Assembly: GCA_014382125.1 (NCBI GenBank)
Contig: JACNKI010000224.1
Location: 1-33,645, forward strand
Origin: Bacteroidota bacterium
GTDB taxonomy: Bacteria; Bacteroidota; Bacteroidia; Bacteroidales; FEN-979
Reading direction: 5' to 3'
DNA length: 33,645 nucleotides
The position numbers were made by a program, and so were the translations under genes. Shown here in pieces: positions 11,826-27,787 of this stretch. Position 1 is the stretch's first letter; every line of letters starts with the position of its first letter. A model generated the notes under the pieces. It was not told the origin of the DNA. It saw only the letters and a program-made list of their open reading frames with translations, and made no database searches.

Positions 11826-12036
11826 ATTCTTGGATTGTATGTAATTTTGCTTCAAAGGTGGGAATTTTCTCTTGAATGAGGGAACAGAAAGCAAAGATTG
11901 TTGTATTTTCTAGGGCATTGACTATTTCATCGGTTCGGGGATATACCTGAAATAGGAGGAAAATTCCCGTCTCACATCTTGTTTTTTCCTATATAATTTA
12001 TTATATTTCGAGCGATAATTTTAAATCCTTGGAAAT

Positions 12037-13806
12037 ATGAAAACTCGCTCAATCATTCTGCTTTTCGTTTTTGCACCGTTGGCTGTACTTAGTCAATGGT
12101 CAAACAATCCATCACTCAACACCAAAATCATTGATACCACCGGGACCCAGGCAATACCCAAAGTGGCTGTCAATCCAACAAATGGCCAAAGTTATTTCTC
12201 CTGGTTTAATAAAACTGAAGCCAACCCGAATTTTGAAATTTATTTACAGCGGTTGGATGCTTCTGGAAATAAATTATGGAATGATGAAGGATTGCTGATC
12301 AGTAACCATCCAACCTGGAGCTGGGTTACAGATTACGATATGATTGCTGATTCTGAAGGGGATGCCATTATTGTCACCCAGGATGCCCGAACAGGCTTTA
12401 GCGATGTTTTTGCATACAGGATCTCACCGGATGGGACGTTCGAATGGGGAACAGATGGAATCGCACTGACTAATGACAATAATTTTGATCCTTCTCCACA
12501 GACTGTTGTCACCACGGATGAAAACATCGTGTTTATGTGGGCCGAAGAACCCGCTGACACGACTGACTTCATTCGTATTAACCTCCAAAAACTATCATTG
12601 GATGGTCAGTCTTTATGGACAGGTAATACGGTGATCAGCAAAGACACTATGCATTGCATGATGCCCCAGATGATCGCCACCGAAGATACGGGCGTCATAG
12701 TGGTTTGGGTAAATACCCATTCTACCGATACTTCCATGGTGGGGAACTGGCCGAACATGTATCCCATGGCGCAGAAAATAGATAAGGATGGGAAAGTACT
12801 CTGGGCAGAGCCCACGGCCCTTGATACTCTTGACAACATGCCCCTGGCATTTTTTGAGGTTGCATTGATCAGCGATGGGAACAATGGATTTTTTGTGGGA
12901 TGGATGGCATTTCCGGCTGGCCAATATTTAAACGCTTACATTCAGCATGTATCCTCCGACGGGACTCCGCAATGGGCTGCCAATGGACTTCCTGTTTCCG
13001 ACTCCCTCCAGTATCAGCATACCGATCCCTCCCTTGTCTGGCTTCCTCAGCATGAAGAGGTGTTCGTTTTCTGGAACATCATGTATCCGTTCGTGTGGAC
13101 AGAAGCGATCTACGGCCAGAAGTTTTCCATTGACGGACAAAACCTATGGATAGCTGGAGGAATTAATTTCACCGGCTGGATGACTGACACCCTTATCGCC
13201 CTGGCCGATATCAAAAGTGCAAGTGAGGATGATATCTGTATGTTTTTTGAAAATGAATTCATTGCAATATCAGGTAGCGATACAACACTGAACAATGATT
13301 ACTATGCTTGCAGGATCAACAGGGAGGGCGCCACGGTGTGGGGGGATACGACTACACTGTTCGCAAATTCAACCGGAGCAAAGTATGGCATGGCCCTGAG
13401 TGAGTTGAATAACGGACAATGGATCGCGGTATGGCAGGATTGCCGTAGCAATCCCGCATCCATACAAGAGACAGGCATCTATGCCCAGAATATCAGAACC
13501 AACGGGACTTTGGGTCCTCTGAATATCGGGGAGTTGCATCCAATAAGCAATCTCATGGTTTCATGCTATCCAAACCCTTTTGATAATAACTTCAATGTAG
13601 AATATGAAATCGAACAAGAAGGCAACGTTGAAATTTCCCTATATGATCTGTTTGGGAGAGAGATCAGGCAGCTCTTCTCAGCAGAGCAACAACCAGGGAG
13701 CTATAGGTATACATTTAATGGCACCGATCTACATGTTGGAGTCTACATAATCAAACTCCGGCAGAACGGGAATATGGCCTGTCACAAGATTGTGAAAAGC
13801 AAATAA
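12037..13806 (+). CDS. Secreted protein with C-terminal T9SS type A sorting domain
   Basis: Signal peptide MKTRSIILLFVFAPLAVLSQ; repeated GLPVSDSLQ/DGQNLW propeller-like segments; C-terminus VSCYPNPFDNNFNVEYEI...GVYIIKLRQNGNMACHKIVKSK. Confidence 0.88.
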   Translation: MKTRSIILLFVFAPLAVLSQWSNNPSLNTKIIDTTGTQAIPKVAVNPTNGQSYFSWFNKTEANPNFEIYLQRLDASGNKLWNDEGLLISNHPTWSWVTDYDMIADSEGDAIIVTQDARTGFSDVFAYRISPDGTFEWGTDGIALTNDNNFDPSPQTVVTTDENIVFMWAEEPADTTDFIRINLQKLSLDGQSLWTGNTVISKDTMHCMMPQMIATEDTGVIVVWVNTHSTDTSMVGNWPNMYPMAQKIDKDGKVLWAEPTALDTLDNMPLAFFEVALISDGNNGFFVGWMAFPAGQYLNAYIQHVSSDGTPQWAANGLPVSDSLQYQHTDPSLVWLPQHEEVFVFWNIMYPFVWTEAIYGQKFSIDGQNLWIAGGINFTGWMTDTLIALADIKSASEDDICMFFENEFIAISGSDTTLNNDYYACRINREGATVWGDTTTLFANSTGAKYGMALSELNNGQWIAVWQDCRSNPASIQETGIYAQNIRTNGTLGPLNIGELHPISNLMVSCYPNPFDNNFNVEYEIEQEGNVEISLYDLFGREIRQLFSAEQQPGSYRYTFNGTDLHVGVYIIKLRQNGNMACHKIVKSK

Positions 13807-13810
13807 TTCC

Positions 13811-13819
13811 TATCTTTGC
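13811..13819 (+). promoter_or_regulatory. Bacteroidota -7 box TATCTTTGC, likely tRNA promoter
   Basis: Exact TAnnTTTGC, 77 nt upstream of the tRNA 5' end. Confidence 0.5.
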
Positions 13820-13870
13820 ACCCCATTTGCGGTGCCCGGATGTTAGCTTGACGGCCTGGAATAAACAAAG

Positions 13871-13891
13871 CAAATCGTCAATCGTAAATCG
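13871..13891. repeat. Heptanucleotide-period repeat, 3 units (CAAATCG/TCAATCG/TAAATCG)
   Basis: Direct reading: caaatcg tcaatcg taaatcg. Confidence 0.75.
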
Positions 13892-13896
13892 AAAAA

Positions 13897-13970
13897 GGGC
13901 CCATAGCTCAGTTGGTTAGAGCAGTAGACTCATAATCTATTGGTCCCAGGTTCAAGTCCTGGTGGGCCCA
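13897..13970 (+). tRNA. tRNA with CAT anticodon (elongator Met, or Ile2 if lysidine-modified)
   Basis: Acceptor GGGCCCA/TGGGCCC plus discriminator A; D-arm GCTC...GAGC; anticodon arm GTAGA-CTCATAA-TCTAT; T-arm CCAGG-TTCAAGT-CCTGG. CCA not encoded. Confidence 0.95.
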
Positions 13971-13985
13971 CAGAAATTTCTTATA

Positions 13986-14020
13986 AAGGTTTGTATCACA
14001 ATAATATACAAGCCTTTTTT
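13986..14020 (+). terminator. Rho-independent terminator downstream of the tRNA
   Basis: 11-bp stem AAGGTTTGTAT / ATACAAGCCTT (one G-T wobble), 9-nt loop, then a T tract. Confidence 0.8.
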
Positions 14021-14134
14021 GCTTTTGAGGTTATACATAAGTTATCTGTTAAATGTCCCTTTTCCCCTTAACTGTCATAAAACACGTATCTTAGTAAATC
14101 CTAAAACGAATACGTGTCCACTTTGTCCGGCAAA

Positions 14135-15697
14135 ATGAAAAAACTCATCAAACACTTAATAATCAGCAATGTAATCATCACATTATTGATGTTTCCTATA
14201 GTAGTTTCTTCTCAAAACCTGGACAGCCTTTGGACGGTTTGGAATGATGACAGTCAACCTGATTCGGCGCGGCTTGAGGCTATTAACAGTTTTATTTGGA
14301 CTCGCTATTATCAAACTCAAATTAGTGATGACAGCCTTTTGATCATATCGCAAAATATGTATGATCTGGCAGTAGATGCAGGGCTAAAAAAGCCGCAGTC
14401 AGATGCCTTATTGCATTTAGGTCTTGTTTACAGATATGGTAGCAATAATCAAAAAGCGTTGGAATATTTTGAACAAAGTCTTTCACTTTCTACAGAAATT
14501 AATTACCTAAAAGGTATTGGACTAGCTTATGAAGGCATTGCAACCATGCTTGACATTGAAGCGAGATATAAAGAATCTTTAACTTACTATAAAAAAGGTC
14601 TGGAAAAGTATAAAGAAATTTCTGATAGTACCCAAATGGCCTATTGCTTAAATCGGATTGGTAGTGCATATCACCAACTATCCGATTATACTTTGGCCCG
14701 ATCCTATTATGATAGTGGTATAGCAATGCTTGATACTGTGGATGAATACTTCTTGTTTCAAGCAGTGAAAGGTAATATCGCGAGTATCTTAGCTGACCAG
14801 GGTGATTATAAGAATGCACTACCCATACAAATTAGAATTTTAAATTATTTTAAAACAGTTGGATATTACGAGGGAGTGGGCATTGGAAATGAGTTTATAG
14901 GTAATATATATGTTAATCAAGGAAAGTATGATTCAGCGCAGGCTTATTACCAGAAAAGTTTAAAAGTATTTCAGCAAATAAATTATAAGCTTGGTATAGC
15001 ATGGGTTTTTGGGTCTATAAGTGATGTTTATAAAAAACAGGGTAATTTCATAAAAGCATTAGAATATTTGAAAAGAAGTAAGATTGCATATACAGAAATC
15101 AATTATAGTCTTGGAATTGCTGAGTGTTTAATTTCATACGGGGAATTTTATGCTGATCTTGAAGATTACACTGTTTCCCTGGGTTATTTGCAAACTGCTC
15201 TTGAACTTTTTGAGGAGATTGGAAATAACAGGTTCATTGCAGAAGTATATTCTTTGATGGGAGGAATTTATCTTAAGCTTGCCGATTACTCACAAGCTTA
15301 CAAATATTATGAGATGAGCCTTTCCATTTTTATTGAACTGGAAATGAAAAGTCAAATAGCCGCTGTATATAACAAATTGGGAGTTTACTTTAAAGAATTG
15401 GGTGACTATAAAAATGCAAAGGATTATCTGATGCGTAGTAAAGAAATTTATGAAGAAATTGGACATAAAAAAGGTTTGGCAGAAGTCTGTATCGATTTAG
15501 GCGATCTAAACTTTCTGCAGGGCAATTTAAGTAATGGTATCGATTGGTGCAAAAATGGATATGACATTGCAGTTGAGATGGGCGTATTAACACTGGAACA
15601 AGAAGCAGCTAATAGCCTTTACAAAGCTCATAAGGCGATGGGCAACAACATCCTGGCCCTGAATTTCCTGGAGCGGTCTCTGGAATTTTATTATTAG
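14135..15697 (+). CDS. TPR-repeat protein, probably the detached sensor half of a hybrid two-component protein
   Basis: Signal peptide MKKLIKHLIISNVIITLLMFPIVVSSQ then many ~40-aa TPR/Kelch-free helical repeats (e.g. KALEYFEQSLSLSTEINYLKGIGLAYEGIATM). Start refined to ATG 14135. Ends abruptly at FLERSLEFYY. Confidence 0.8.
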   Translation: MKKLIKHLIISNVIITLLMFPIVVSSQNLDSLWTVWNDDSQPDSARLEAINSFIWTRYYQTQISDDSLLIISQNMYDLAVDAGLKKPQSDALLHLGLVYRYGSNNQKALEYFEQSLSLSTEINYLKGIGLAYEGIATMLDIEARYKESLTYYKKGLEKYKEISDSTQMAYCLNRIGSAYHQLSDYTLARSYYDSGIAMLDTVDEYFLFQAVKGNIASILADQGDYKNALPIQIRILNYFKTVGYYEGVGIGNEFIGNIYVNQGKYDSAQAYYQKSLKVFQQINYKLGIAWVFGSISDVYKKQGNFIKALEYLKRSKIAYTEINYSLGIAECLISYGEFYADLEDYTVSLGYLQTALELFEEIGNNRFIAEVYSLMGGIYLKLADYSQAYKYYEMSLSIFIELEMKSQIAAVYNKLGVYFKELGDYKNAKDYLMRSKEIYEEIGHKKGLAEVCIDLGDLNFLQGNLSNGIDWCKNGYDIAVEMGVLTLEQEAANSLYKAHKAMGNNILALNFLERSLEFYY

Positions 15698-15717
15698 CGC
15701 TTGGTATATTTCGCCGC

Positions 15718-17442
15718 ATGGTATATGTCAGGAGAACCAATAGGGAACTGGCCAGAAGAAATGAAATAATTGCAAAGGAAAAAGAGCGGGCTGAAGCATC
15801 AGAAAAAGCCAAGGAGATATTCTTCAATAATATCTCCCATGAATTTCGTACTCCCTTAACGTTAATTCTCGGGCCGCTTGATGAGACTCTTGAAAAAACT
15901 TCCGATGATACGATTAAACCCGGACTGCAAATTATGCAGCGTAACGCCCTTCGTTTGCAGGATATGATCACTGAGTTACTTGACTTATCAAAACTGGAAT
16001 TCGGGAAAGTAAAGCTTCTGGCCAAGGAAGAAAACATCGTAAAACTTACGCAAGATTACCTTCAATCTTTTGAATCCCTGGCAGACCAGCGCAGAATCAA
16101 ACTTAAGTTTAAATCAGACGCAAAAGAATACAAAGCGTGGATTGATTCAGAGAAATTTGAAAAGATCCTTGCGAACTTATTATCAAACGCATTTAACTTT
16201 TCCAGACCCCAGGGGGAGATCAGGATTACAGTTGGCAGTAAGCAGTCGGCAGTTGGTATGAAATCGATTAAAGATAGGAGACTTAAGAATGGGACAACAT
16301 TCAAAAACGGAGTATATATAACTGTCTCGGATTCAGGCATTGGGATCCCAAAAGAAAAGCTCCCCCATATTTTTGACCGCTTTTTCCAGGTGGGAGAATC
16401 CTCTCAAGCTCATCATGCAGGTACAGGGATCGGGTTGGCCCTGACTAAAGAGCTGGTTGAATTACATCATGGAACTATAAATGTGATAAGTGAACCGGGT
16501 AAGGGAACTACATTCACTGTTTTTATTCCTTTTGGTCATGAACATTTTTCAGAAGAAAAGATCTTTGTTGAACAAACAAAAGAAAAGGAAGCTGAAAAAA
16601 CAGAATGGGCCGTTGATAAGGAAATTTCAGGATATGTGACAGAAGAAGAAGTTAAAAAGAAAAATGAATTACCTATTCTCCTTATTATTGAAGATAATGC
16701 AGATATGCGGGCTTACATTAAATCGCATCTCGAAAAAAAGTATACAATTATAGAAGCCATTGATGGAGAAACCGGTCTTCAGGCGGCCATAGACAACATT
16801 CCCGATCTGATAATCAGCGATGTGATGATGCCTAAGATGGACGGTTATGAGATGACCGAAAAAATAAAAACCGATCCGCGGACAAACCATATCCCGGTGA
16901 TTATCCTCACAGCACGTGCTTCGGTGGAAAGCAAGATCGAGGGCCTCGAAACAGGTGCAGATGCACATGTAACAAAACCTTTTAATGCAAGAGAAATACA
17001 GGTCAGGGTAAAGAAACTTATCGAACAGCGTCAGAAACTCAGGGAGTATTTCAGTCGTACGCTTGAAAGTCTTGATTTGCACCTGGTAAAAGACTCCCGG
17101 CTGCCTTCGATGGACCAGCAATTCATCAAGAAAGCCATAGATGTGGTTACGGAGCACATAGCTGATGATGGTTTTAATGCCCGCACTTTTGCCCGTGAAA
17201 TGGCTTTGAGCCGTGTACAACTGCACCGTAAATTAAAAGCATTGACAAATAAAACTACTACTGAATTTATACGCACCCTTCGTTTGAACCGTGCAGCCAG
17301 CCTTCTGAAAGGCCAAACAGGTAATGTAACCGAAATAGCTTATGAGGTTGGATTCAGCAGCCTTTCGTATTTTACAAGCAGTTTTACCGAGCAGTTTGGT
17401 TCAACACCTTCGGCCTTTGTTCAAAAGAATAAAACCAGGTAG
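15718..17442 (+). CDS. Hybrid histidine kinase: HisKA - HATPase - receiver - AraC-type HTH, lacking its TM/sensor portion
   Basis: NNISHEFRTPLTLILGPLDE, LLSNAFNFS, DSGIGIPKEKLPHIFDRFFQV, GTGIGLALTKELVELHHG, IIEDNADMRAYI...ISDVMMPKMDGYEMTEKIK, HVTKPF, and a C-terminal AraC HTH (VTEIAYEVGFSSLSYFTSSFTEQFGSTPSAF). Confidence 0.92.
   Translation: MVYVRRTNRELARRNEIIAKEKERAEASEKAKEIFFNNISHEFRTPLTLILGPLDETLEKTSDDTIKPGLQIMQRNALRLQDMITELLDLSKLEFGKVKLLAKEENIVKLTQDYLQSFESLADQRRIKLKFKSDAKEYKAWIDSEKFEKILANLLSNAFNFSRPQGEIRITVGSKQSAVGMKSIKDRRLKNGTTFKNGVYITVSDSGIGIPKEKLPHIFDRFFQVGESSQAHHAGTGIGLALTKELVELHHGTINVISEPGKGTTFTVFIPFGHEHFSEEKIFVEQTKEKEAEKTEWAVDKEISGYVTEEEVKKKNELPILLIIEDNADMRAYIKSHLEKKYTIIEAIDGETGLQAAIDNIPDLIISDVMMPKMDGYEMTEKIKTDPRTNHIPVIILTARASVESKIEGLETGADAHVTKPFNAREIQVRVKKLIEQRQKLREYFSRTLESLDLHLVKDSRLPSMDQQFIKKAIDVVTEHIADDGFNARTFAREMALSRVQLHRKLKALTNKTTTEFIRTLRLNRAASLLKGQTGNVTEIAYEVGFSSLSYFTSSFTEQFGSTPSAFVQKNKTR
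16229..16256. repeat. Heptanucleotide-period repeat, 4 units (CAGTTGG CAGTAAG CAGTCGG CAGTTGG), inside the histidine kinase gene
   Basis: Direct reading; encodes TVGSKQSAVG in the kinase frame. Confidence 0.85.
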
Positions 17443-17470
17443 CTTCACAACTGACAGCTCAGGGAAATCT

Positions 17471-17491
17471 CATCACGCATCACGCGCCACT
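17471..17491. repeat. Heptanucleotide-period repeat, CATCACG CATCACG CGCCACT
   Basis: Direct reading, immediately 3' of the kinase stop codon. Confidence 0.65.
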
Positions 17492-17662
17492 TGTTTTCGG
17501 TGTTCTCTTAAACAAAATTTTTCTATTCCTGTCCACATTTTACGCTGAAAATGGAAATTGATACATTTCAGCAAAAGAATGAAACATATGAGATTGTAAT
17601 TGACCCTCCCCCGAAGGTACTTTTATCCCCATGAATTTATTTATTAATCAAAACCTTAGATC

Positions 17663-19600
17663 ATGAAAACAAAAATTACACTTTTTATCGGAATGGTGAT
17701 TTGCACAATTACATTATGCGGGCAAATCATTTATGTCCCGGCTGATCAACCCAGCATTCAGATGGGGATAAATGCAGCCACGGATGGAGATACCGTATTG
17801 ATCTCTGATGGATATTATTTTGAAAACATAACTTTTAACGGCAAAGCGATCACGGTTGCAAGTCAATTTTTAATGGACAGTGATAGCAGTCATATCTGGA
17901 ATACCATTATTGATGGAAGTCAGCCAGTGTTAAGTTCTACAGTATATTTTGGTTCCGGTGAAGATACAACTTCAATACTCTTTGGACTGACAATTACAGG
18001 TGGAACAGGTACACCAGTGAACGTTTATGGTGGTGCCCAACTCGGAGGAGGTATTGGTTGTTATACAGATACAGGAGAAGAATGGCTGGTTGTTGTTAAT
18101 AATACGATTTTTGACAACACATCCAGCGCAATCGGTGACACTGGTTGGCGCAGCGCTGCCGGAGGGGGAATGTATGCTCATTCCAATGCAAGGGTTTGCA
18201 ATAACATCATTCAATATAATACATGTTTTTCCACCCATACAGCTGATGGTGCAGGAGTCGAGTTTGAGTCTCCTCCATCCGGGAGCCCGTTCCTGGTACA
18301 ATTCGCAAATAACAATGTTCAGTTTAATACTGCCCTGGGAGACGGAATGGCATTCGGAGGAGGAGTTAGTATATACAATACTGAAATGAGTATAACCAAT
18401 AACAAGATCAGCAACAATACGCTGATTTGTGATATAGTGAATTTAGGTGCAGGGGTAAATCTGCTTGGATGGCTATCATTAGGGAATGTTGTATCCATCC
18501 GGGATAATGAATTTATTGGAAATAAGGTTGTGGGAGACGGAGTATCCCTTGGAACAGCAATTCATCTGGATAATGTTGATCACCTTGTTAAAATCAGGAA
18601 TAACCTTTTCTTCGCAAATGACGGAACAGAAAGCGATTATTCCTATGGAACGGTTTCCACCTGGTTCTATTCCGATGATTATATCGGAAAAAACTCAGAG
18701 ATCATACTCGATGGAAATATATTCAAGCATAATTCAACAAAATCAGGGGGAGCGGTTAGTGTTTACAATTCCTTTAATTTTTCGTTCACAAATAACTTAT
18801 TTCTATGTAATAATGCTGAATACGGGGGAGCAGTTTACCTGAAACAGATGACACAGAAATCTGGCACCCGGAGCGGATTACGCGAAGAAACAATGTCTTC
18901 CATGGCAAACAATACGTTTATTAATAATGAGGCCCAAACTATGGCTGGTGCCATATATAATGGATATACTACAGAAACCGTGGCGACATTTAACAATATC
19001 TTCTGGCAAAACGATGCATACTACTATAATGATATTTTCACTTCAAGCGAATTACCATTACTCGTGGCATATTCTGATATTGATACTGATGGTATTGAGG
19101 GAACATGGGAAGGCAACAATAACTTTATTGAAGATCCCGATTTAGAAGAAGATTCACTTCATATCAATAATATCAGTCCATGTTATAACCAGGGGACGGA
19201 AACTATTACATATAATGAGTTTTTATTTACTAGTCCCATTATAGATATTGACGGAGAAGATCGCCCTATGTATGGCGGAATTGATATTGGCGCTGATGAA
19301 TGTTTTAATGCTGTAGGATTGTGGCCAGATAACGTGTCAGAGGAAATTTCAATGCTGGTGTATCCAAATCCTTTTACTAATCATGCAACCATAAAATTTA
19401 ATCTTGATGAGCCATCATATTGCATTCTGGAAGTGTACAATTCATCCGGTATAACGATTGAAACAATAGCCAACAAACATTTTGGTGCAGGGCAGAACCA
19501 AATCCAGTGGCAAAGTCATAATTTACCTACTGGTATTTACTGTCTGAGATTAGCAACCGACAGTAAAATATACACGGCTAAAGTTTTGCATCTGAAATAA
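17663..19600 (+). CDS. Secreted right-handed beta-helix (pectate-lyase-like fold) protein with T9SS sorting domain
   Basis: Signal peptide, VPADQPSIQMGINAATDGDTVLISDGYYFENITFNGKAITVAS, repeated NNIIxxNT/GGGVSIYN coils, C-terminus MLVYPNPFTNHATIKFNL...GIYCLRLATDSKIYTAKVLHLK. Confidence 0.88.
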   Translation: MKTKITLFIGMVICTITLCGQIIYVPADQPSIQMGINAATDGDTVLISDGYYFENITFNGKAITVASQFLMDSDSSHIWNTIIDGSQPVLSSTVYFGSGEDTTSILFGLTITGGTGTPVNVYGGAQLGGGIGCYTDTGEEWLVVVNNTIFDNTSSAIGDTGWRSAAGGGMYAHSNARVCNNIIQYNTCFSTHTADGAGVEFESPPSGSPFLVQFANNNVQFNTALGDGMAFGGGVSIYNTEMSITNNKISNNTLICDIVNLGAGVNLLGWLSLGNVVSIRDNEFIGNKVVGDGVSLGTAIHLDNVDHLVKIRNNLFFANDGTESDYSYGTVSTWFYSDDYIGKNSEIILDGNIFKHNSTKSGGAVSVYNSFNFSFTNNLFLCNNAEYGGAVYLKQMTQKSGTRSGLREETMSSMANNTFINNEAQTMAGAIYNGYTTETVATFNNIFWQNDAYYYNDIFTSSELPLLVAYSDIDTDGIEGTWEGNNNFIEDPDLEEDSLHINNISPCYNQGTETITYNEFLFTSPIIDIDGEDRPMYGGIDIGADECFNAVGLWPDNVSEEISMLVYPNPFTNHATIKFNLDEPSYCILEVYNSSGITIETIANKHFGAGQNQIQWQSHNLPTGIYCLRLATDSKIYTAKVLHLK

Positions 19601-19618
19601 CACCACATAAAGTGTTAT
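19597..19618 (+). terminator. Possible hairpin overlapping the stop codon of the beta-helix gene
   Basis: 7-bp perfect stem ATAACAC / GTGTTAT with 8-nt loop. No T tract, so a weak terminator call. Confidence 0.35.
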
Positions 19619-19633
19619 TACAACTTTGGGCTG

Positions 19634-19650
19634 GTCCTGTTGGGCCCACA
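19634..19650. repeat. Imperfect copy of the tRNA 3' end (att-like)
   Basis: gtcctgttgggcccaca versus gtcctggtgggcccaca at 13956..13972; 16/17 identical. Confidence 0.7.
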
Positions 19651-19669
19651 TGAAAATCAAAATAAATGC

Positions 19670-20938
19670 TCACAATTCCATTCCAAAATGTTTTGTAACT
19701 TGATTAGAAGAGGCAATGGCGTCCTCGTGAAAACCTTTTCCAAAATAACTTCCACAAAAATAAGAATGATTGACACCATTTAATGAAGGCAATTTATTTT
19801 GGATACGAAGAGTGTCCAGCGTGTAATGAGGAAAATAATGTTCCATTTCTGTTACAATTGTATTTTCCCGAATAGGAAAAAAAGGATTAAAGGAGACAAA
19901 ATAGGGATTCTTCGATTTCTTCCCTGTAATATTATTTGCCCAATTCATTATGGAGGCTTGAATAAAACCGTTCTTGTCCTTTTCAAGATGGAAATTATAA
20001 GTTGACCATAAATTTTCATTTTGAACCAGCCGTGATGTATCTGTGTGCATAATGGATTTTATTTTATGGGCCTTCCAAATGCTAAGACAATTCAGTTCAT
20101 TTTCAGTGGGATCATCGAGTAATGTTAGTGCTTGATGTGGAAGTGTGGCAATGATGACTTTATCAAAATAATGACTTTCCCCATTCTGCATTTTTAAAAT
20201 AATCCCGTTCTTCTTACGGTACACTTTACGAATACCAGAATTGAGTTTAATATTCTCATTTCCTATTTTGCTTGTTATCTTTTGAATATAGTCAATACAT
20301 CCTCCTTGAATGGTTTTCCAATAAAAAGCAAATAACGGACTGATTAAATTATACTCCCCGACAAAATGTGCAAATTCTCCCGGATATTGCAGCGCCTCTT
20401 CATATGAAGGGCCCCAGGCTGCATTAATCTCAGAAAAAAATAAGTCACGAAATGCTTCAGAGTATCTCTTTTTTTTAAAGTAAAGCTCCAACGTAATATC
20501 ATGTAATTCCCCATTGCTGTGATCTTTTATGGTTTGTTTCTTAAAAACCAATAAATCACGAGATAGCATTAAATTCTCAGGATTGAATAAATCAAATCCC
20601 TGATCAACCAACCCTTTTAAATTATTAGTAATGCAATACTTCAATCTGTTATCATAGTACATAGTAAGCGAATTGATAACAAATCTGGGTTTCACGTCAA
20701 GTTGTGATAGTAGCTTTACAAATAAAGGGTATTTTTTGAGATTAAAGATAATGACGCCTGTATCAATTGGAATGCCATCATCGGTTATATAGGTATGAAT
20801 ACTTCCACCTGAATAGTAATTCTTTTCAAATATGGTGATTTCATGTTTTTGCCGTAAAATATATGCAGCGGTAAGTCCTGAAATGCCAGCACCAATCACG
20901 GCAATTTTATATCGTTTATCCAATGGCAATAGCGACAT
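19670..20938 (-). CDS. NAD(P)/FAD-dependent oxidoreductase, COG2907-like (amine-oxidase fold)
   Basis: YKIAVIGAGISGLTAAYILRQKHEITIFEKNYYSGGSIHTY Rossmann motif; FDKVIIATLPHQAL; C-terminal YFCGSYFGKGFHEDAIASSNQVTKHFG. Confidence 0.88.
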   Translation of the reverse strand: MSLLPLDKRYKIAVIGAGISGLTAAYILRQKHEITIFEKNYYSGGSIHTYITDDGIPIDTGVIIFNLKKYPLFVKLLSQLDVKPRFVINSLTMYYDNRLKYCITNNLKGLVDQGFDLFNPENLMLSRDLLVFKKQTIKDHSNGELHDITLELYFKKKRYSEAFRDLFFSEINAAWGPSYEEALQYPGEFAHFVGEYNLISPLFAFYWKTIQGGCIDYIQKITSKIGNENIKLNSGIRKVYRKKNGIILKMQNGESHYFDKVIIATLPHQALTLLDDPTENELNCLSIWKAHKIKSIMHTDTSRLVQNENLWSTYNFHLEKDKNGFIQASIMNWANNITGKKSKNPYFVSFNPFFPIRENTIVTEMEHYFPHYTLDTLRIQNKLPSLNGVNHSYFCGSYFGKGFHEDAIASSNQVTKHFGMEL

Positions 20939-20975
20939 TAAACAAATATAAGTTTAATGTCAGGATAATCAGTAT

Positions 20976-21280
20976 TTATTTCCTCTCCCTGCGAACATAA
21001 CTCAACTTATCCCTGGATCTCCAGGTGGCTCCATTATCGTTGGTGGACTCTATTTCGAGGATAAAATCATTATCTTCCATATCGCGGATAAGAATACGGG
21101 AATAGCTGTTTTTTTGTGTTGAATCCACATCGCTGATAAAAACCTGGTTTGCAATGAATGTACTGTCATTAAAATCAAACATGTAATCATCCACAAGCGG
21201 TTGAATATTTCTTCATAATACTATTTAGCTATAGAATGCCCGGTTTTCTGAGTAAATATTAGCTCATAAGTCCTTAAAAG
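20976..21280 (-). pseudogene. Deletion-fusion scar: 5' end/upstream of a PQQ-propeller gene joined to the 3' end of a DUF1579-like gene
   Basis: Translation ...FNDSTFIANQVFISDVDSTQKNSYSRILIRDMEDNDFILEIESTNDNGATWRSRDKLSYVRR parallels the C-terminus of 23364..24554. 21180-21275 parallels 25779-25873 (atgtaatcatccacaag...agctcataa). Confidence 0.8.
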
Positions 21281-21284
21281 TAAC

Positions 21285-22727
21285 TTATTTCTTCACCTTG
21301 TTCCCCTGATACCCAAAAAGTCGCTTCTCCTTAACCTCCTTCTCAACGTATTTTGGCACCATCTCCTCCCAGCCGGGTTCACCCTCCCGGATCATTCGCA
21401 GCACGTTGGCCGAGTCGATATACAGCCATTCCTTTCTAACGTCTGTGATGTCGAGAATCTTTCTGCTTTTTATCAGGTAATGATAGAGGTCTTCCTCTTC
21501 ATCTGAAAGGTGGATATCTTTTGACGTCAGGAGTTCTCCCGCAGCTTCCCGGGTTTTGATGGATACCGAGGGGATGGTTGGATAAATATAAAGCTTCATG
21601 TTATTCACAAAAAGTTTGCCGAACGCTTCCAGAATCCCCCCTTTGAGATCGGTATAGTACTTCTCGTTGATCACCTTGAGGAAGGTGGGAATCCCGATTA
21701 CAACTCGCAGATTTTTTATAGCAAACTGCGAAAAATAGCTGACCAGCCTGTAGTATTCCCGAAATTTTGAGATCATCACATTTTGCCCCAATCCATTCAG
21801 CAAATCGACCCGCTCGAGGAAATCGCGTTCATCAATTTCCCCTTTTCGTAACAGGTTGTTGACTGATATTTCGCAAAGTGATAATGTATTTTCCCTGGTA
21901 TAATCTTCATCCCGTTTGAAGATCCGGTAGCTGGACTTCAGCATATCAAATCCTACCTTATGGATGGGACGGAATGCTCCCCTGAAGAGCAAAACATTTT
22001 TTTTATATAGGATATCAGAGGGTTGTTGAACCTCGCCGTTCCGGTCAAAGATCATCGCTGATGTCATGCCGTTCTTCACCAGCTGAACCCCCAGAAGGCG
22101 ATTATCTACATAGTCAAGATCCGGACCACGCATTCTCATCATAGTGATCTCGATGCGATCTTTTGAGATATTATCCATCAGCGAGCGGATGAATTCAACC
22201 GGGTGTTTGATGAAATGATAACAGGCGAAAATCAGGTTAACGCCAAGAATGCCCAGCGTTTGTTGCTGAAGCAAGGTATCCTGCTCAAGGAGATTCACAT
22301 GAAGCAGTACTTCATTGGGTTCTGTTTCAGGATCATGCTGGAATCGCATTCCCATCCAGCCATTGCTGTAATTGTCCTTCTGGTAATTCAGGGTAGTCAC
22401 CGTGTTGGCAAAGGCAAAATATTTCGTTGGGTTCTCCCGCTTTCCCGTCAGCAGCCCGACAAGGTCATTGTACTCTTCATCCAGCATTTTACATAACCTG
22501 CCCTCTGATACGTATTTACCTGGTTTGTTCTGATTGTAGAGCCTGTCACTGAACAATTTATCATAAGCAGAGATTGATTTTGCGATGGTCCCGGAAGCGC
22601 CCCCTGCCTGGAAGAACTGCCGGGCTACCTCCTGCCCCCCGCCAATCTCTGCAATGGTACCGTAAATTGATGTATCCAGGTTTATGATTAATGCTTTTCG
22701 ATTGGCGCTGGGAATATCCCGTTCCAT
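21285..22727 (-). CDS. Conserved protein of uncertain function (family sometimes labelled nicotinate-nucleotide adenylyltransferase-like)
   Basis: LNIDTSIYGTIAEIGGGQEVARQFFQAGGASGTIAKSISAYD ... FAFANTVTTLNY...GWMGMRFQ pattern, recognised from memory as a widespread bacterial family. Function uncertain. Confidence 0.75.
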   Translation of the reverse strand: MERDIPSANRKALIINLDTSIYGTIAEIGGGQEVARQFFQAGGASGTIAKSISAYDKLFSDRLYNQNKPGKYVSEGRLCKMLDEEYNDLVGLLTGKRENPTKYFAFANTVTTLNYQKDNYSNGWMGMRFQHDPETEPNEVLLHVNLLEQDTLLQQQTLGILGVNLIFACYHFIKHPVEFIRSLMDNISKDRIEITMMRMRGPDLDYVDNRLLGVQLVKNGMTSAMIFDRNGEVQQPSDILYKKNVLLFRGAFRPIHKVGFDMLKSSYRIFKRDEDYTRENTLSLCEISVNNLLRKGEIDERDFLERVDLLNGLGQNVMISKFREYYRLVSYFSQFAIKNLRVVIGIPTFLKVINEKYYTDLKGGILEAFGKLFVNNMKLYIYPTIPSVSIKTREAAGELLTSKDIHLSDEEEDLYHYLIKSRKILDITDVRKEWLYIDSANVLRMIREGEPGWEEMVPKYVEKEVKEKRLFGYQGNKVKK

Positions 22728-22849
22728 ACGCTAGAGATTTTTTGGATAAGATCAAAGATACAAATTTCTCCGGTTTTGTTCAACACTTACCACATACCTG
22801 CGATATCGTTAAGAAAATTTCCGGATATGAAAATCTAAGTAAATTAAAG

Positions 22850-22906
22850 AAGGCAATTTATTTTGGATACGGAGAGTGTCCATCGTGTAACGAGGAAAAT
22901 AGTGGA
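22850..22906 (-). pseudogene. Relic of a second COG2907-like flavoprotein gene
   Basis: gaaggcaatttattttggatacggagagtgtccatcgtgtaacgaggaaaatagtg is nearly identical to ~19784-19839 inside the flavoprotein gene; minus strand encodes HYFPRYTMDTLRIQNKLPS versus HYFPHYTLDTLRIQNKLPS. Confidence 0.8.
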
Positions 22907-23006
22907 TACAGGAAAATCTCTTTATATCTATTATTCAATATTACAAAATATATAAAGCCTGGCGGGTCCATAACAAAGAAAGTAGCAACTATCATTTTAT
23001 TCAGAA

Positions 23007-23336
23007 TCACACCCTATTTTTATTCTTTTTTACTCGTTGAATCCTTCTGTACCTCTTTCTTGCTGCCTGCCTTCTCCAGTATTTCCCCCAAAGGATATTT
23101 GTCCAAAGCCTCTCGTGAAAATAATACAACACCAGTTTGGCAAGAATATCAATGGAAGTAATTATCGATACTGCACCCAGAACATCCCTAAAAGCTGTTT
23201 GCGTAGCCTGAGTAAAAATGGCGAAACTTATGATAAATGTTGCTCCGGAGGCCACAAACCTCCAACTGATAGCCTTTAAAACACTTCTGCTCGGGCTATC
23301 CTTGTCCAGAGGTTTATCTCTCCTTTTAGCAGACAT
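23007..23336 (-). CDS. DUF2061 membrane protein
   Basis: SRSVLKAISWRFVASGATFIISF...SIDILAKLVLYYFHERLWTNILWG, typical of the DUF2061 family. Confidence 0.85.
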   Translation of the reverse strand: MSAKRRDKPLDKDSPSRSVLKAISWRFVASGATFIISFAIFTQATQTAFRDVLGAVSIITSIDILAKLVLYYFHERLWTNILWGKYWRRQAARKRYRRIQRVKKNKNRV

Positions 23337-23363
23337 TTTCAATCGTTATCAAAAACAATATTA

Positions 23364-24554
23364 CTAAAAAAGCTCCTTCCTGCGAATATAAGTAAATTTA
23401 TCTTGTGGTCGCCAGTTGGCTCCGGCATCCCTGGTTGTCTTGACTTCAAATACAAACGAATCACCTTCCATATCCCGAAGAATAATACGGGAAAAAGCAT
23501 TTTGTTGTGTTGAATCCTCCCTGTTAATAAAAACCTGGTCTGCGATAAAGGTGCTGTCATTAAAATTACCTTCAAACAGTTCAAAATCAGATGAGAATCC
23601 GTTATAAACAATAATTTTGTATTTTTTTTCTGAGGAAATATAGGAGTAGTTTATCCATTTTGATTGCACATATATTCTGTCGTATATGATTTTCTCTAAC
23701 AACCTATTGGTTGACTCCCAAAGAATAATTGAAAAAGTGCTATCAAGACGATACCAGGACCCGCGCCTGGACCATACGTCCACTTTCACATCCCACTCTC
23801 CTTCCAAAAATGCCAGCTTTTTCATTTCAGCACTCCGGGGAAATTCAAATAGCTCCTCATCAACCTCTATGTTAAATTTTATATCCTCAATTTGAAGCAT
23901 CCTGTTGCGTTGGTAGAAGGTACGCTCAATGAAAAAGGGAATAACAATTCCGTTAACTGTCCTGAAATCATCGAAATAGGACTCTGCAGGACCGCCATAA
24001 CCAAAATCAGCCCATTCCGATTCGCATTTATATTCTAAATATGTATTCGCATCCAGGAACCATGTTTCTGATTTACCATTTGGCCGGGATAATTTAATGG
24101 CAAATACATCTATCCCGTCAACAGTTTGTTTGCCAAGTAATTCCACGGTGAAACCTCTCTCTTCCCATTTATAAAATGGAGTGAAAAATTCAGCTTTTTG
24201 ATTAAAAACATTGACTTCGGTTTTGTTTAATGCTCTCGGAAAACTGAAATCATGCCAGGGATCAATGGTCCACCCGGAAGTGCCGTTAAACGCTTCTGTA
24301 ACTTTATGTTTACCCAGATGCAGTTCGCTGTAGTAGGCTCCCGAATTTGTTTTCAGGGCATAAAAGTCATCCTCTTCGCTGAAGGCAATAAACCGGCCTC
24401 TGATCTCCATCGATTGAATCGCATCCCATTTATCGGTATCTCCATGTGCGTCGATATGTTTCGCTATAATTTCATCTATATCCTGAGCATGCATGATCGA
24501 TGAAATACAAAATAAACTGAGAATAACGAAAATTAGGCGTCTTACTGATTTCAT
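23364..24554 (-). CDS. Secreted protein: LolA-like N-terminal half plus DUF1579-like C-terminal half
   Basis: Signal peptide; IIAKHIDAHGDTDKWDAIQSMEIRGRF; LEYKCESEWADFG; LEGEWDVKVDVWSRRGSWYRLDSTFSI...KFTYIRRKE. Confidence 0.75.
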   Translation of the reverse strand: MKSVRRLIFVILSLFCISSIMHAQDIDEIIAKHIDAHGDTDKWDAIQSMEIRGRFIAFSEEDDFYALKTNSGAYYSELHLGKHKVTEAFNGTSGWTIDPWHDFSFPRALNKTEVNVFNQKAEFFTPFYKWEERGFTVELLGKQTVDGIDVFAIKLSRPNGKSETWFLDANTYLEYKCESEWADFGYGGPAESYFDDFRTVNGIVIPFFIERTFYQRNRMLQIEDIKFNIEVDEELFEFPRSAEMKKLAFLEGEWDVKVDVWSRRGSWYRLDSTFSIILWESTNRLLEKIIYDRIYVQSKWINYSYISSEKKYKIIVYNGFSSDFELFEGNFNDSTFIADQVFINREDSTQQNAFSRIILRDMEGDSFVFEVKTTRDAGANWRPQDKFTYIRRKELF

Positions 24555-24579
24555 GGTAATCCGGTTTATTTGTGAATGA

Positions 24580-25815
24580 TTACTTCAACGTATAACAAGC
24601 TGCTTCTGTAAGATTTCTTACATATATTTTCCCATCCTGAAATGAAGGAGCGGTCCATGATTTACCGGAAATGGACTGAATGGATCCATTTTCGATATAT
24701 GAATCGGGTGTTGCTTCAACAACAGCTAGCTTCCCCTGATCCGAAAGAACGAGCAATTTGTTGTCAACAAGGATAAGACTTCCTTTTCCAAAACCTCTTT
24801 TTGTCCATTTTACTTTACCTGTTTCTGCTGAAATACAACGCAATGAAGCCACATGAAATCCATAAATATATCCGTTGTAGTATAAACATGAACTAAAGTC
24901 ATTTTTCATGCTGTTTCCATGAATCAGTTCCGTGGCTTTGTTCTCTTCAATTTGAACGATGATAAATCCGGGATTGCGAATGCCGGAGAGAAAAATTTTG
25001 TTAGGGCCGATAAAGACAGGACTTGCGATAATATTTCCGAAAGGCATCGTATAAGACCATAATGTATCTCCTTGCGAAGTGTAGGCAACCAACTTTTGGC
25101 CGTTAGCAAATATAATCTGTTCCTGGCCATCGATCGTAACCAACAGGGGCGAGTTATACGAAGCATTTCCATTAGCTGAGGCCCAGATCGTATTTCCGTT
25201 CGTTTTATCAAACGACATAAAAGCGCTTGAATCTGTACCACCTACCTCCATAATAAGTTGATTGTCAACAAGGATAGGTGATGAAGAATACCCCCAGCGG
25301 GGACAGGTACTTCCGAACGCCTTTACAAGATCAAGCTGCCAGATCCGGTTGCCATCCTTTTTTGAATTGGCAGTGAGTTTTCCATTCGCACTTAAGCTAT
25401 AAATATTTAATTCGTCAACGGTAGGAGTTGATCGGGAACCATGTCCCCACCCATCTATCTCGATGAATATTGAATCTACATTTGACCTCCATAATTCATC
25501 ACCCGTATCCTCTTCGTAAGCCGCCACAAACTCGAAACCGGAGATACTATCCGTTTGTTCACTTGCCATAGTAAAAACTACCCCTTCAGAAACAATGAGT
25601 TCAGAAAAGGCAGGACCTATTTCCTTTTTCCATAAACGTGTGGGTTGTGTTTCAGCCCAGTTAATTTGCGATAGGTCTTCGGTTGAAACTCCATCTCCAT
25701 GCGGACCTCTGAATTGTGACCAGGATTCGGAGTTACTGTTTTGCGACAAACCTGTTAATGTGTAGATGAAAATCACGGATGTAATCATCCACAAGTGGTT
25801 GAGTATCTTCATCAT
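24580..25815 (-). CDS. PQQ-binding-like beta-propeller repeat protein, secreted
   Basis: Signal peptide; WSQFRGPHGDGVS; repeated GDELWRSNV / GNRIWQLDL / GNTIWASANG / GDTLWSYTM / GKVKWTKRG blades. Confidence 0.9.
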   Translation of the reverse strand: MMKILNHLWMITSVIFIYTLTGLSQNSNSESWSQFRGPHGDGVSTEDLSQINWAETQPTRLWKKEIGPAFSELIVSEGVVFTMASEQTDSISGFEFVAAYEEDTGDELWRSNVDSIFIEIDGWGHGSRSTPTVDELNIYSLSANGKLTANSKKDGNRIWQLDLVKAFGSTCPRWGYSSSPILVDNQLIMEVGGTDSSAFMSFDKTNGNTIWASANGNASYNSPLLVTIDGQEQIIFANGQKLVAYTSQGDTLWSYTMPFGNIIASPVFIGPNKIFLSGIRNPGFIIVQIEENKATELIHGNSMKNDFSSCLYYNGYIYGFHVASLRCISAETGKVKWTKRGFGKGSLILVDNKLLVLSDQGKLAVVEATPDSYIENGSIQSISGKSWTAPSFQDGKIYVRNLTEAACYTLK

Positions 25816-26050
25816 AATACATTAGCTGTTAGGTGCTTGACTTTCTGAGGAAAAATCAGCTCATAAAACTACTAAAAAAGAAGAAAATACAGCCCGTTAT
25901 TTTGATATGTTCTGGACGAATCTGCTAATCACTTAATTTAATCGATGAAACCGGATAAATGTAAATAACTTTTCATAAAACCACCTCTTTCAGATCCTGA
26001 TTTATTGCTGAATTGTTCTAATTTGCTTGTTTAACGAATACAGAACAATT

Positions 26051-27787
26051 ATGATGGCGTGGATCACGATTATTGGGAAAATCCTCACCCTGGTAGGCTC
26101 TCTGGGTCTTTTCTTGTTTGGTATGAAGCTCATGAGTGAAGCGCTCCAGAAAGTGGCCGGAAGTAAAATGAGACACATCCTGGCTGCCATGACCAACAGC
26201 CGGATAAAAGGTGCTTTCACCGGGATGCTGGTGACCACCACCATCCAGTCCTCCTCTGCCACTACCGTGATGGTGGTAAGTTTCGTCAACGCTGGGTTGC
26301 TTTCACTGGTTGCTGCAGTAGGCGTGATCATGGGGGCAAACATTGGGACCACGGTAACCGCCTGGCTTATCTCCCTCCTGGGATTTAAAATCAGCCTGAG
26401 CTTTTTATCGTTGCCACTGATTGGGATCAGCTTTCCTCTGTTCTTTTCCAAAAACAGCCTGCGAAAATCATGGGGCGAGTTCATCATTGGATTTGCCATC
26501 CTCTTTATTGGCCTTCAGTTTCTGAAAGAGTCTGTTCCCAACATCCAGAGCGATCCCGAATCCCTGCATTTTATATCCTCATTTACAGATCTGGGTTTCT
26601 TGTCTGTACTGATCTTCATCTTGATTGGTACAATCCTGACCATCCTCATTCAATCGTCGAGTGCCACCATGGCGTTAACCCTGGTAATGTGTTACAATGG
26701 GTTGATCCCATTTGAAATGGCTGCAGCCATGGTGCTGGGTGAAAACATCGGAACAACCGTTACGGCGAATTTTGCCGCTATGGTGGCCAATGTATCAGCC
26801 AAAAGAGCGGCCCGGGCCCACCTCATATTTAATTTGTTCGGAGTGATCTGGATGGTTGCTGTATTCCATTACTTTTTAAGGGGGATAGATTACTTCCTGC
26901 AACAGAAACATGGTGTCTCTATTTTAAATACTCATCTTACTACAAAAGATTTTGAGAGTATTCACAGTGTGTATCCGGTTGCACTCGCTATTTTCCACAC
27001 AAGCTTCAATATCATTAATACACTCCTTCTTATCGGATTTGCTGCATTTATTGCCAAAGTGGCGACAAAAATGGTCCCGGATAAAAGCGAAGATGATGAA
27101 GAGTTTACCCTGAAATATATTAGTTCAGGGTTGTTCTCCACCAGTGAATTATCCATCATACAAGCACGCAAAGAGGTATTTATTTTCGGAACTCGTATCG
27201 AAAAAATGTTTGAGTTATTGGAAAGCATGATGGTTGAGCCAAAACCGAAGAAATACTATAAGTTGCTGGATAAAATTAAAAAATATGAAGAGATAACCGA
27301 TGACCTTGAACTGGAAATTGCTTCTTACCTGACAAATGTATCCGAAGGCGAGATCAGCCATGAGAGCTCGAAGAAAATACGAGCCATGTTAAAGATCATT
27401 GATGATCTGGAAAGTATCGGAGATGTCATTTACGCATTCTCAAAAACCATAGATAATACAAACCAAGCCAAATCCAGGTTCACCCAGGAGCAGAAGGATC
27501 GACTCAATGAGATGTTTGAACTCTTGAAGCAGGCTTTCACAGAGATGAATCTGAACCTTGAAAAAGGATTCAGTGATGTGAACGTAGACCGTGCATATTT
27601 CCTTGAAAATCAGATAAACGAAAAAAGAGACCAGCTTCGTTTGCTACACGTCGAAGATCTGAAAGAGAAGAGATACAAACATAAAATTGGCGCTTTCTAC
27701 AGTGAAATGGTTTCCCAGAGCGAACGGATCGGGGATTACATCATCAACGTAAGCGAGGCCATCATCGAATACCAGGATACCGCCTGA
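26051..27787 (+). CDS. Na/Pi cotransporter family protein with C-terminal PhoU-like domain
   Basis: LGLFLFGMKLMSEALQKVAGSKMRHILAAMTNSRIKGAFTGMLVTTTIQSSSATTVMVVSFVNAGLL, second QSSSATMALTLVM repeat, helical PhoU-like tail. Confidence 0.93.
   Translation: MMAWITIIGKILTLVGSLGLFLFGMKLMSEALQKVAGSKMRHILAAMTNSRIKGAFTGMLVTTTIQSSSATTVMVVSFVNAGLLSLVAAVGVIMGANIGTTVTAWLISLLGFKISLSFLSLPLIGISFPLFFSKNSLRKSWGEFIIGFAILFIGLQFLKESVPNIQSDPESLHFISSFTDLGFLSVLIFILIGTILTILIQSSSATMALTLVMCYNGLIPFEMAAAMVLGENIGTTVTANFAAMVANVSAKRAARAHLIFNLFGVIWMVAVFHYFLRGIDYFLQQKHGVSILNTHLTTKDFESIHSVYPVALAIFHTSFNIINTLLLIGFAAFIAKVATKMVPDKSEDDEEFTLKYISSGLFSTSELSIIQARKEVFIFGTRIEKMFELLESMMVEPKPKKYYKLLDKIKKYEEITDDLELEIASYLTNVSEGEISHESSKKIRAMLKIIDDLESIGDVIYAFSKTIDNTNQAKSRFTQEQKDRLNEMFELLKQAFTEMNLNLEKGFSDVNVDRAYFLENQINEKRDQLRLLHVEDLKEKRYKHKIGAFYSEMVSQSERIGDYIINVSEAIIEYQDTA

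Follow-up and report, generated by a model that had tools for sequence, protein, structure and literature searches.

A short gene cluster that seems once to have been present twice in a Bacteroidota genome, each copy having lost what the other kept

Duplication followed by reciprocal gene loss has been described mainly for whole-genome duplications. Paramecium is an example of reciprocal gene loss after whole-genome duplication (PMC10195154). The locus described here resembles such systems in having two copies of a gene set, each keeping what the other has lost, with remnants of the lost genes still recognisable; it differs from the whole-genome cases in that a local bacterial operon is concerned and its copies flank an older gene. 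Islands integrated at tRNA 3' ends are a further point of comparison, as one insert starts at a tRNA 3' end and has a 17-bp direct repeat downstream; unlike those islands, the genes between the repeats carry no integrase domain, and the flavoprotein gene and a scar lie just outside the second repeat. The flavoprotein, which we take to be of the COG2907 type following the initial annotation, is homologous to these FAD oxidoreductases over its full length, at about 31% identity; they are its nearest relatives found, they belong to distant groups, and they share with it the C-terminal FCG..(Y/F)..GFHED motif (FCGSYF..GFHEDA in common). Several of these distant relatives adjoin DUF1365 genes, whereas the gene studied here is linked to genes for a PQQ propeller and a LolA/DUF1579 protein instead. 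LolA-superfamily carriers of Bacteroidota, including LolA3 (PMC11885536, PMC13103446), have the same fold as the N-terminal domain of the latter, a 396-aa protein, which in comparison with the carriers adds a C-terminal DUF1579/nitrobindin-like barrel and a PQQ/BamB-type partner, and whose gene is often beside FtsX/MacB ABC transporter genes.

The window, the whole stretch of DNA analysed, is one complete contig of 33,645 bp from a fragmented Bacteroidota draft genome (243 contigs, 84% complete). A pairwise self-comparison of this window gave no more than three strong matches off the diagonal, each of them direct and collinear: 191 nt at 73% identity between 20985-21175 and 23376-23566 (E 4e-25), 103 columns at 78% between 21168-21269 and 25766-25866 (E 7e-15) and 61 nt at 92% between 19780-19840 and 22844-22904 (E 4e-18). 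The comparison thus bears out the initial annotation, which had proposed two diverged copies of one cassette with complementary retention and scars. Two collinear homologous segments, agreeing in gene order and strand, each retain genes that the other has lost, and the remnants of the lost genes are directly recognisable; a short gene cluster seems once to have been present twice, each copy then losing what the other kept. The features of the two copies are as follows.

19670-20938, minus strand: intact COG2907-like FAD oxidoreductase of 422 aa, the surviving flavoprotein of the left copy (Pfam Amino_oxidase 5e-17, NAD_binding_8)
20979-21175, minus strand: left scar A, the final ~68 codons, with the stop codon, of a second LolA/DUF1579-like gene (73% nt and 58% aa identity to 23376-23566)
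21168-21269, minus strand: left scar B, frameshifted initial codons of a second PQQ gene with its upstream region (78% to 25766-25866)
21285-22727, minus strand: conserved 480-aa protein, encoded by the ancestral gene that separates the two copies (83-84% identity to its counterparts in congeners G003, G004 and G005)
22827-22844, minus strand: right scar, piece from the 3' flank of the flavoprotein copy that was lost (16/18 to 19650-19667; 0/400 dinucleotide shuffles)
22844-22904, minus strand: right scar, the 61 nt that remain of a second flavoprotein gene (codons ~366-387; 92% nt identity to 19780-19840)
22921-22939, minus strand: possible remnant of the N-terminal part of the lost flavoprotein copy (16/19 to 20906-20924, the first codons; 9/150 shuffles, suggestive only)
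23007-23342, minus strand: DUF2061 membrane protein (Pfam PF09834, 1.8e-12)
23364-24554, minus strand: intact exported two-domain protein of 396 aa, with a LolA-superfamily N domain and a DUF1579/nitrobindin-like barrel (AlphaFold2, Foldseek)
24580-25815, minus strand: intact exported PQQ/BamB-type beta-propeller protein of 411 aa (Pfam PQQ_2 6e-22), its pairing with the preceding gene conserved in relatives

Our preferred reading, to which we give a probability of roughly 60%, is that a lineage-specific operon (PQQ propeller > LolA/DUF1579-like > COG2907-like flavoprotein) was duplicated around the 480-aa gene and complementary parts were then deleted. The three genes would have formed one transcription unit, present twice, to the left and to the right of the 480-aa gene, and both copies would have decayed by deletion. 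In the left copy, a single microhomology-mediated deletion of ~2.2 kb would have removed most of the PQQ and LolA/DUF1579 genes; in the right copy, the flavoprotein would have been lost nearly completely, and the DUF2061 gene stands there now. The left event can be read directly from its junction: scars A and B are fused at 21168-21175 through 5-8 bp of microhomology, and because the left scar thus consists of pieces of two genes, one deletion of ~2.2 kb is implied. The LolA/DUF1579 remnant contains no interrupting stop codon, while the PQQ start is frameshifted and reads M K K Y S T A C G stop. In the window, homology of the left scar beyond 21269 is not significant; a truncated tRNA end at 21270 was considered as an extension of this scar and rejected for the same lack of significance, and a structured RNA in the scar region was likewise rejected, as Rfam detects the tRNA alone.

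The scars lie nearly where the initial annotation had placed them, and the right one is probably longer, the piece at 22827-22844 being added. This piece is matched by 19650-19667, which lies immediately beyond the 3' end of the intact flavoprotein gene; together with the possible N-terminal piece, it suggests that the lost right flavoprotein was probably a whole gene that suffered internal deletions. In its own genome, the right scar matches the flavoprotein gene alone beyond chance level, and the 61-nt piece was rejected as a dispersed repeat, no further copy being present in this genome. The DUF2061 gene is found only in the right copy, between the flavoprotein scar and the LolA/DUF1579 gene and inside the right insertion, and tblastn gave no match to it in the congener loci examined or in the 27 loci of the pair considered below.

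Comparison with congeners places the two copies in insertions on either side of the 480-aa gene, with the following borders.

13897-13971, plus strand: tRNA-Met (CAT), whose 3' end bounds the foreign segment on the left (ARAGORN, Rfam)
13956-13972, plus strand: 17-bp tRNA 3'-end sequence, first copy, attL-like (GTCCTGGTGGGCCCACA)
13973-21284, no strand: left insertion, from tRNA-Met to the 480-aa gene, absent from G003 and 7.3 kb here
19634-19650, plus strand: 17-bp direct repeat of the tRNA 3' end, attR-like (16/17), 20 bp from the surviving flavoprotein
22771-25960, no strand: right insertion, ~3.2 kb of unmatched DNA that separates the 480-aa gene from the Na/Pi cotransporter gene

Congeners have the order tRNA / 480-aa gene / (small GlsB-like gene) / Na-Pi transporter. 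In G003, about 12-15 bp separate tRNA-Met from the 3' end of the 480-aa gene; this gene adjoins the Na/Pi cotransporter gene in G004 and, in G003 and G005, lies in the same small region with h95. On the right, congener homology ends at 22735-22770 and resumes at 25960-25962 (G004, G005). On the left, the insertion holds the TPR/histidine kinase genes, a T9SS-sorted protein, the flavoprotein and the left scar. GC3 is 30.5% for the flavoprotein and 38% for the PQQ and LolA/DUF1579 genes, against 55% for the 480-aa gene and about 50% for backbone genes. From the congener synteny and the low GC3 of the inserted genes it follows that the 480-aa gene belongs to the ancestral backbone, to which the cassettes were added on both sides of this gene. 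For how the copies came to flank this gene, we infer either tandem duplication or two separate insertions. The simplest route would be a tandem duplication of the 480-aa gene together with the operon, after which the left 480-aa gene, beside the tRNA-Met site, was lost. This route would explain the layout in one step; two separate insertions would explain it as well. The self-comparison of the window found no remnant of a second 480-aa gene.

Several observations concern the surroundings of the insertions. Within three mismatches, the only second copy of the tRNA-end sequence in the window is that at 19634-19650, and this repeat stops where the 18-nt homology to 22827-22844 starts. Between tRNA-Met and the repeat, 14114-17442 encodes a TPR protein, which ends with TAG at 15697, and, in an ORF starting at 15718, a hybrid histidine kinase that has an AraC output. 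The two resemble the halves of a single TPR-kinase gene interrupted by a frameshift near 15680-15700; no integrase domain was detected among the Pfam-scanned genes of 14114-19600. On the 5' side of tRNA-Met, 11968-13896 is unmatched in G003 and contains a T9SS-sorted protein (12037-13806); on either side, tRNA-Met has the look of a hot spot for insertions. The Na/Pi cotransporter gene is intact in the window (26027-27787); G004 and G005 have broken pieces only (L125:13266-14575; L126:4828-6049) and G003 gave no match. In congeners, a gene for a small glycine-rich membrane protein, GlsB/YeaQ-like by eye, lies beside the 480-aa gene (L125:12874-13122; L127:1307-1554), and the right insertion occupies its place in the window.

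The alternative with the most weight, though clearly a minority one, is that two related cassettes, diverged beforehand, arrived independently, one at the tRNA-Met site and the other in the interval between the 480-aa and Na/Pi genes, and then decayed with no duplication in this genome. Both cassettes do lie in insertions absent from congeners, the left one being bordered by the tRNA-end repeat; the two regions are also hot spots, at which G005 carries a different insert, and 73% nucleotide identity is low for a local duplication. Against this, a protein tree with 27 homologs directly places the left scar as sister to the right LolA/DUF1579 gene (support 100/96), to the exclusion of all 27, which suggests that the two are copies within one lineage. 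The distribution of the flavoprotein also argues against separate acquisition. It is absent from 42 other genomes of the family and from 392 genomes sampled from the order, in which no other COG2907-type member was found, and a flavoprotein-only scan of the genome contigs gave no match; otherwise unseen around this genome, and unique to it among those searched, it is nevertheless part of both copies, with only 5/61 differences. As order and strand are kept in both, the flavoprotein would have been linked to the pair before the copies parted.

That low divergence invites a different account, in which the pair alone was duplicated and the 61-nt fragment arose by a separate later event, such as a small partial duplication or templated insertion, so that no reciprocal loss of three genes took place. 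The flavoprotein pair is indeed far less diverged than the LolA/DUF1579 pair (52/191 differing sites; Fisher p 0.0014), and its stretch is one of ordinary conservation (26% conserved, 29% overall), while the C-terminus of the LolA/DUF1579 protein evolves fast (32% conserved, 49% for the whole protein). These rates together suggest that the copies may be of unequal age or have undergone gene conversion, or that the flavoprotein piece may stem from a later event. At third codon positions, however, the difference is not significant (3/21 for the flavoprotein, 21/64 for LolA/DUF1579, p 0.16), so a single age for all the duplicated genes is possible. Moreover, the fragment has the collinear position and strand, and the 3'-flank and possible N-terminal pieces suggest a whole gene with internal deletions; we consider a later origin of the fragment quite unlikely. 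An assembly artefact, by which strains or repeats were merged in a metagenome-assembled genome, is suggested by the fragmented and incomplete draft, but synteny with G001, G003, G004 and G005 extends over the 480-aa gene and both flanks, and the copies are too diverged for assembly repeats, which makes it highly improbable. With the scars collinear and the left scar sister to the right gene, complementary decay of two copies, as originally proposed, is the account that we favour. The process is ordinary evolution with unusually readable scars and shows no new mechanism; on the preferred reading, the locus would provide a clean example of a duplicated bacterial operon whose copies have decayed in complementary ways, and its deletion junction can be read to the base.

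It had also been proposed that the three genes form one functional unit, and in this respect the relatives tell otherwise. The LolA/DUF1579 gene was followed in 27 other Bacteroidota loci from the GTDB collection, a locus being counted as having room where the contig was long enough. The PQQ gene lies directly beside it in 26/26 loci with room, whereas the flavoprotein gene is present in 0/23 (at least 1.5 kb of downstream room, available in 23 of the 27). Genomes of Marinifilum, which can be cultured, carry the PQQ and LolA/DUF1579 pair. No relative among these 23 loci has all three genes adjacent and no intact three-gene unit is known in any relative, so a conserved unit was rejected. Eight loci from the search of the order, in genomes that partly overlap the 27 loci, agree in showing the PQQ pairing without the flavoprotein. 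Judged by its gene neighbourhoods, the flavoprotein would be a passenger or recruit of this lineage only and no core part of the pair. That it became a working partner of the PQQ and LolA/DUF1579 export pair, and that selection held the complementary decay so that each function survived once across two loci, seems to us rather doubtful.

The locus further points to a little-studied Bacteroidota gene set, in which a LolA-DUF1579 fusion is always paired with a PQQ/BamB-like propeller in loci with room and is often near an FtsX/MacB ABC transporter. The AlphaFold2 model of the 396-aa protein has a mean pLDDT of 88.8, and its top Foldseek matches are the LolA-superfamily structure 3buu, P. gingivalis LolA3 (9tp6) and nitrobindin-type barrels; the LolA fold of the N domain is matched with E 9e-8 (3buu) and 1e-6 (9tp6), at TM by target of 0.50-0.62. 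Relatives of the family also carry stand-alone proteins of ~240-250 aa that match this domain. We found no literature joining DUF1579 with PQQ. Genes for a glycosyltransferase, an ABC ATPase and an FtsX/MacB-type permease are nearby in 7-10 of the 27 loci, mostly directly upstream, and from this gene context the pair is predicted to be the periplasmic partners of an FtsX/MacB-type ABC transporter or export system. One locus (L139:3-9185) has the order PQQ propeller, glycosyltransferase, ABC ATPase, FtsX permease, PQQ propeller, LolA-DUF1579; this arrangement recurs in several Bacteroidota and is possibly an undescribed export system.
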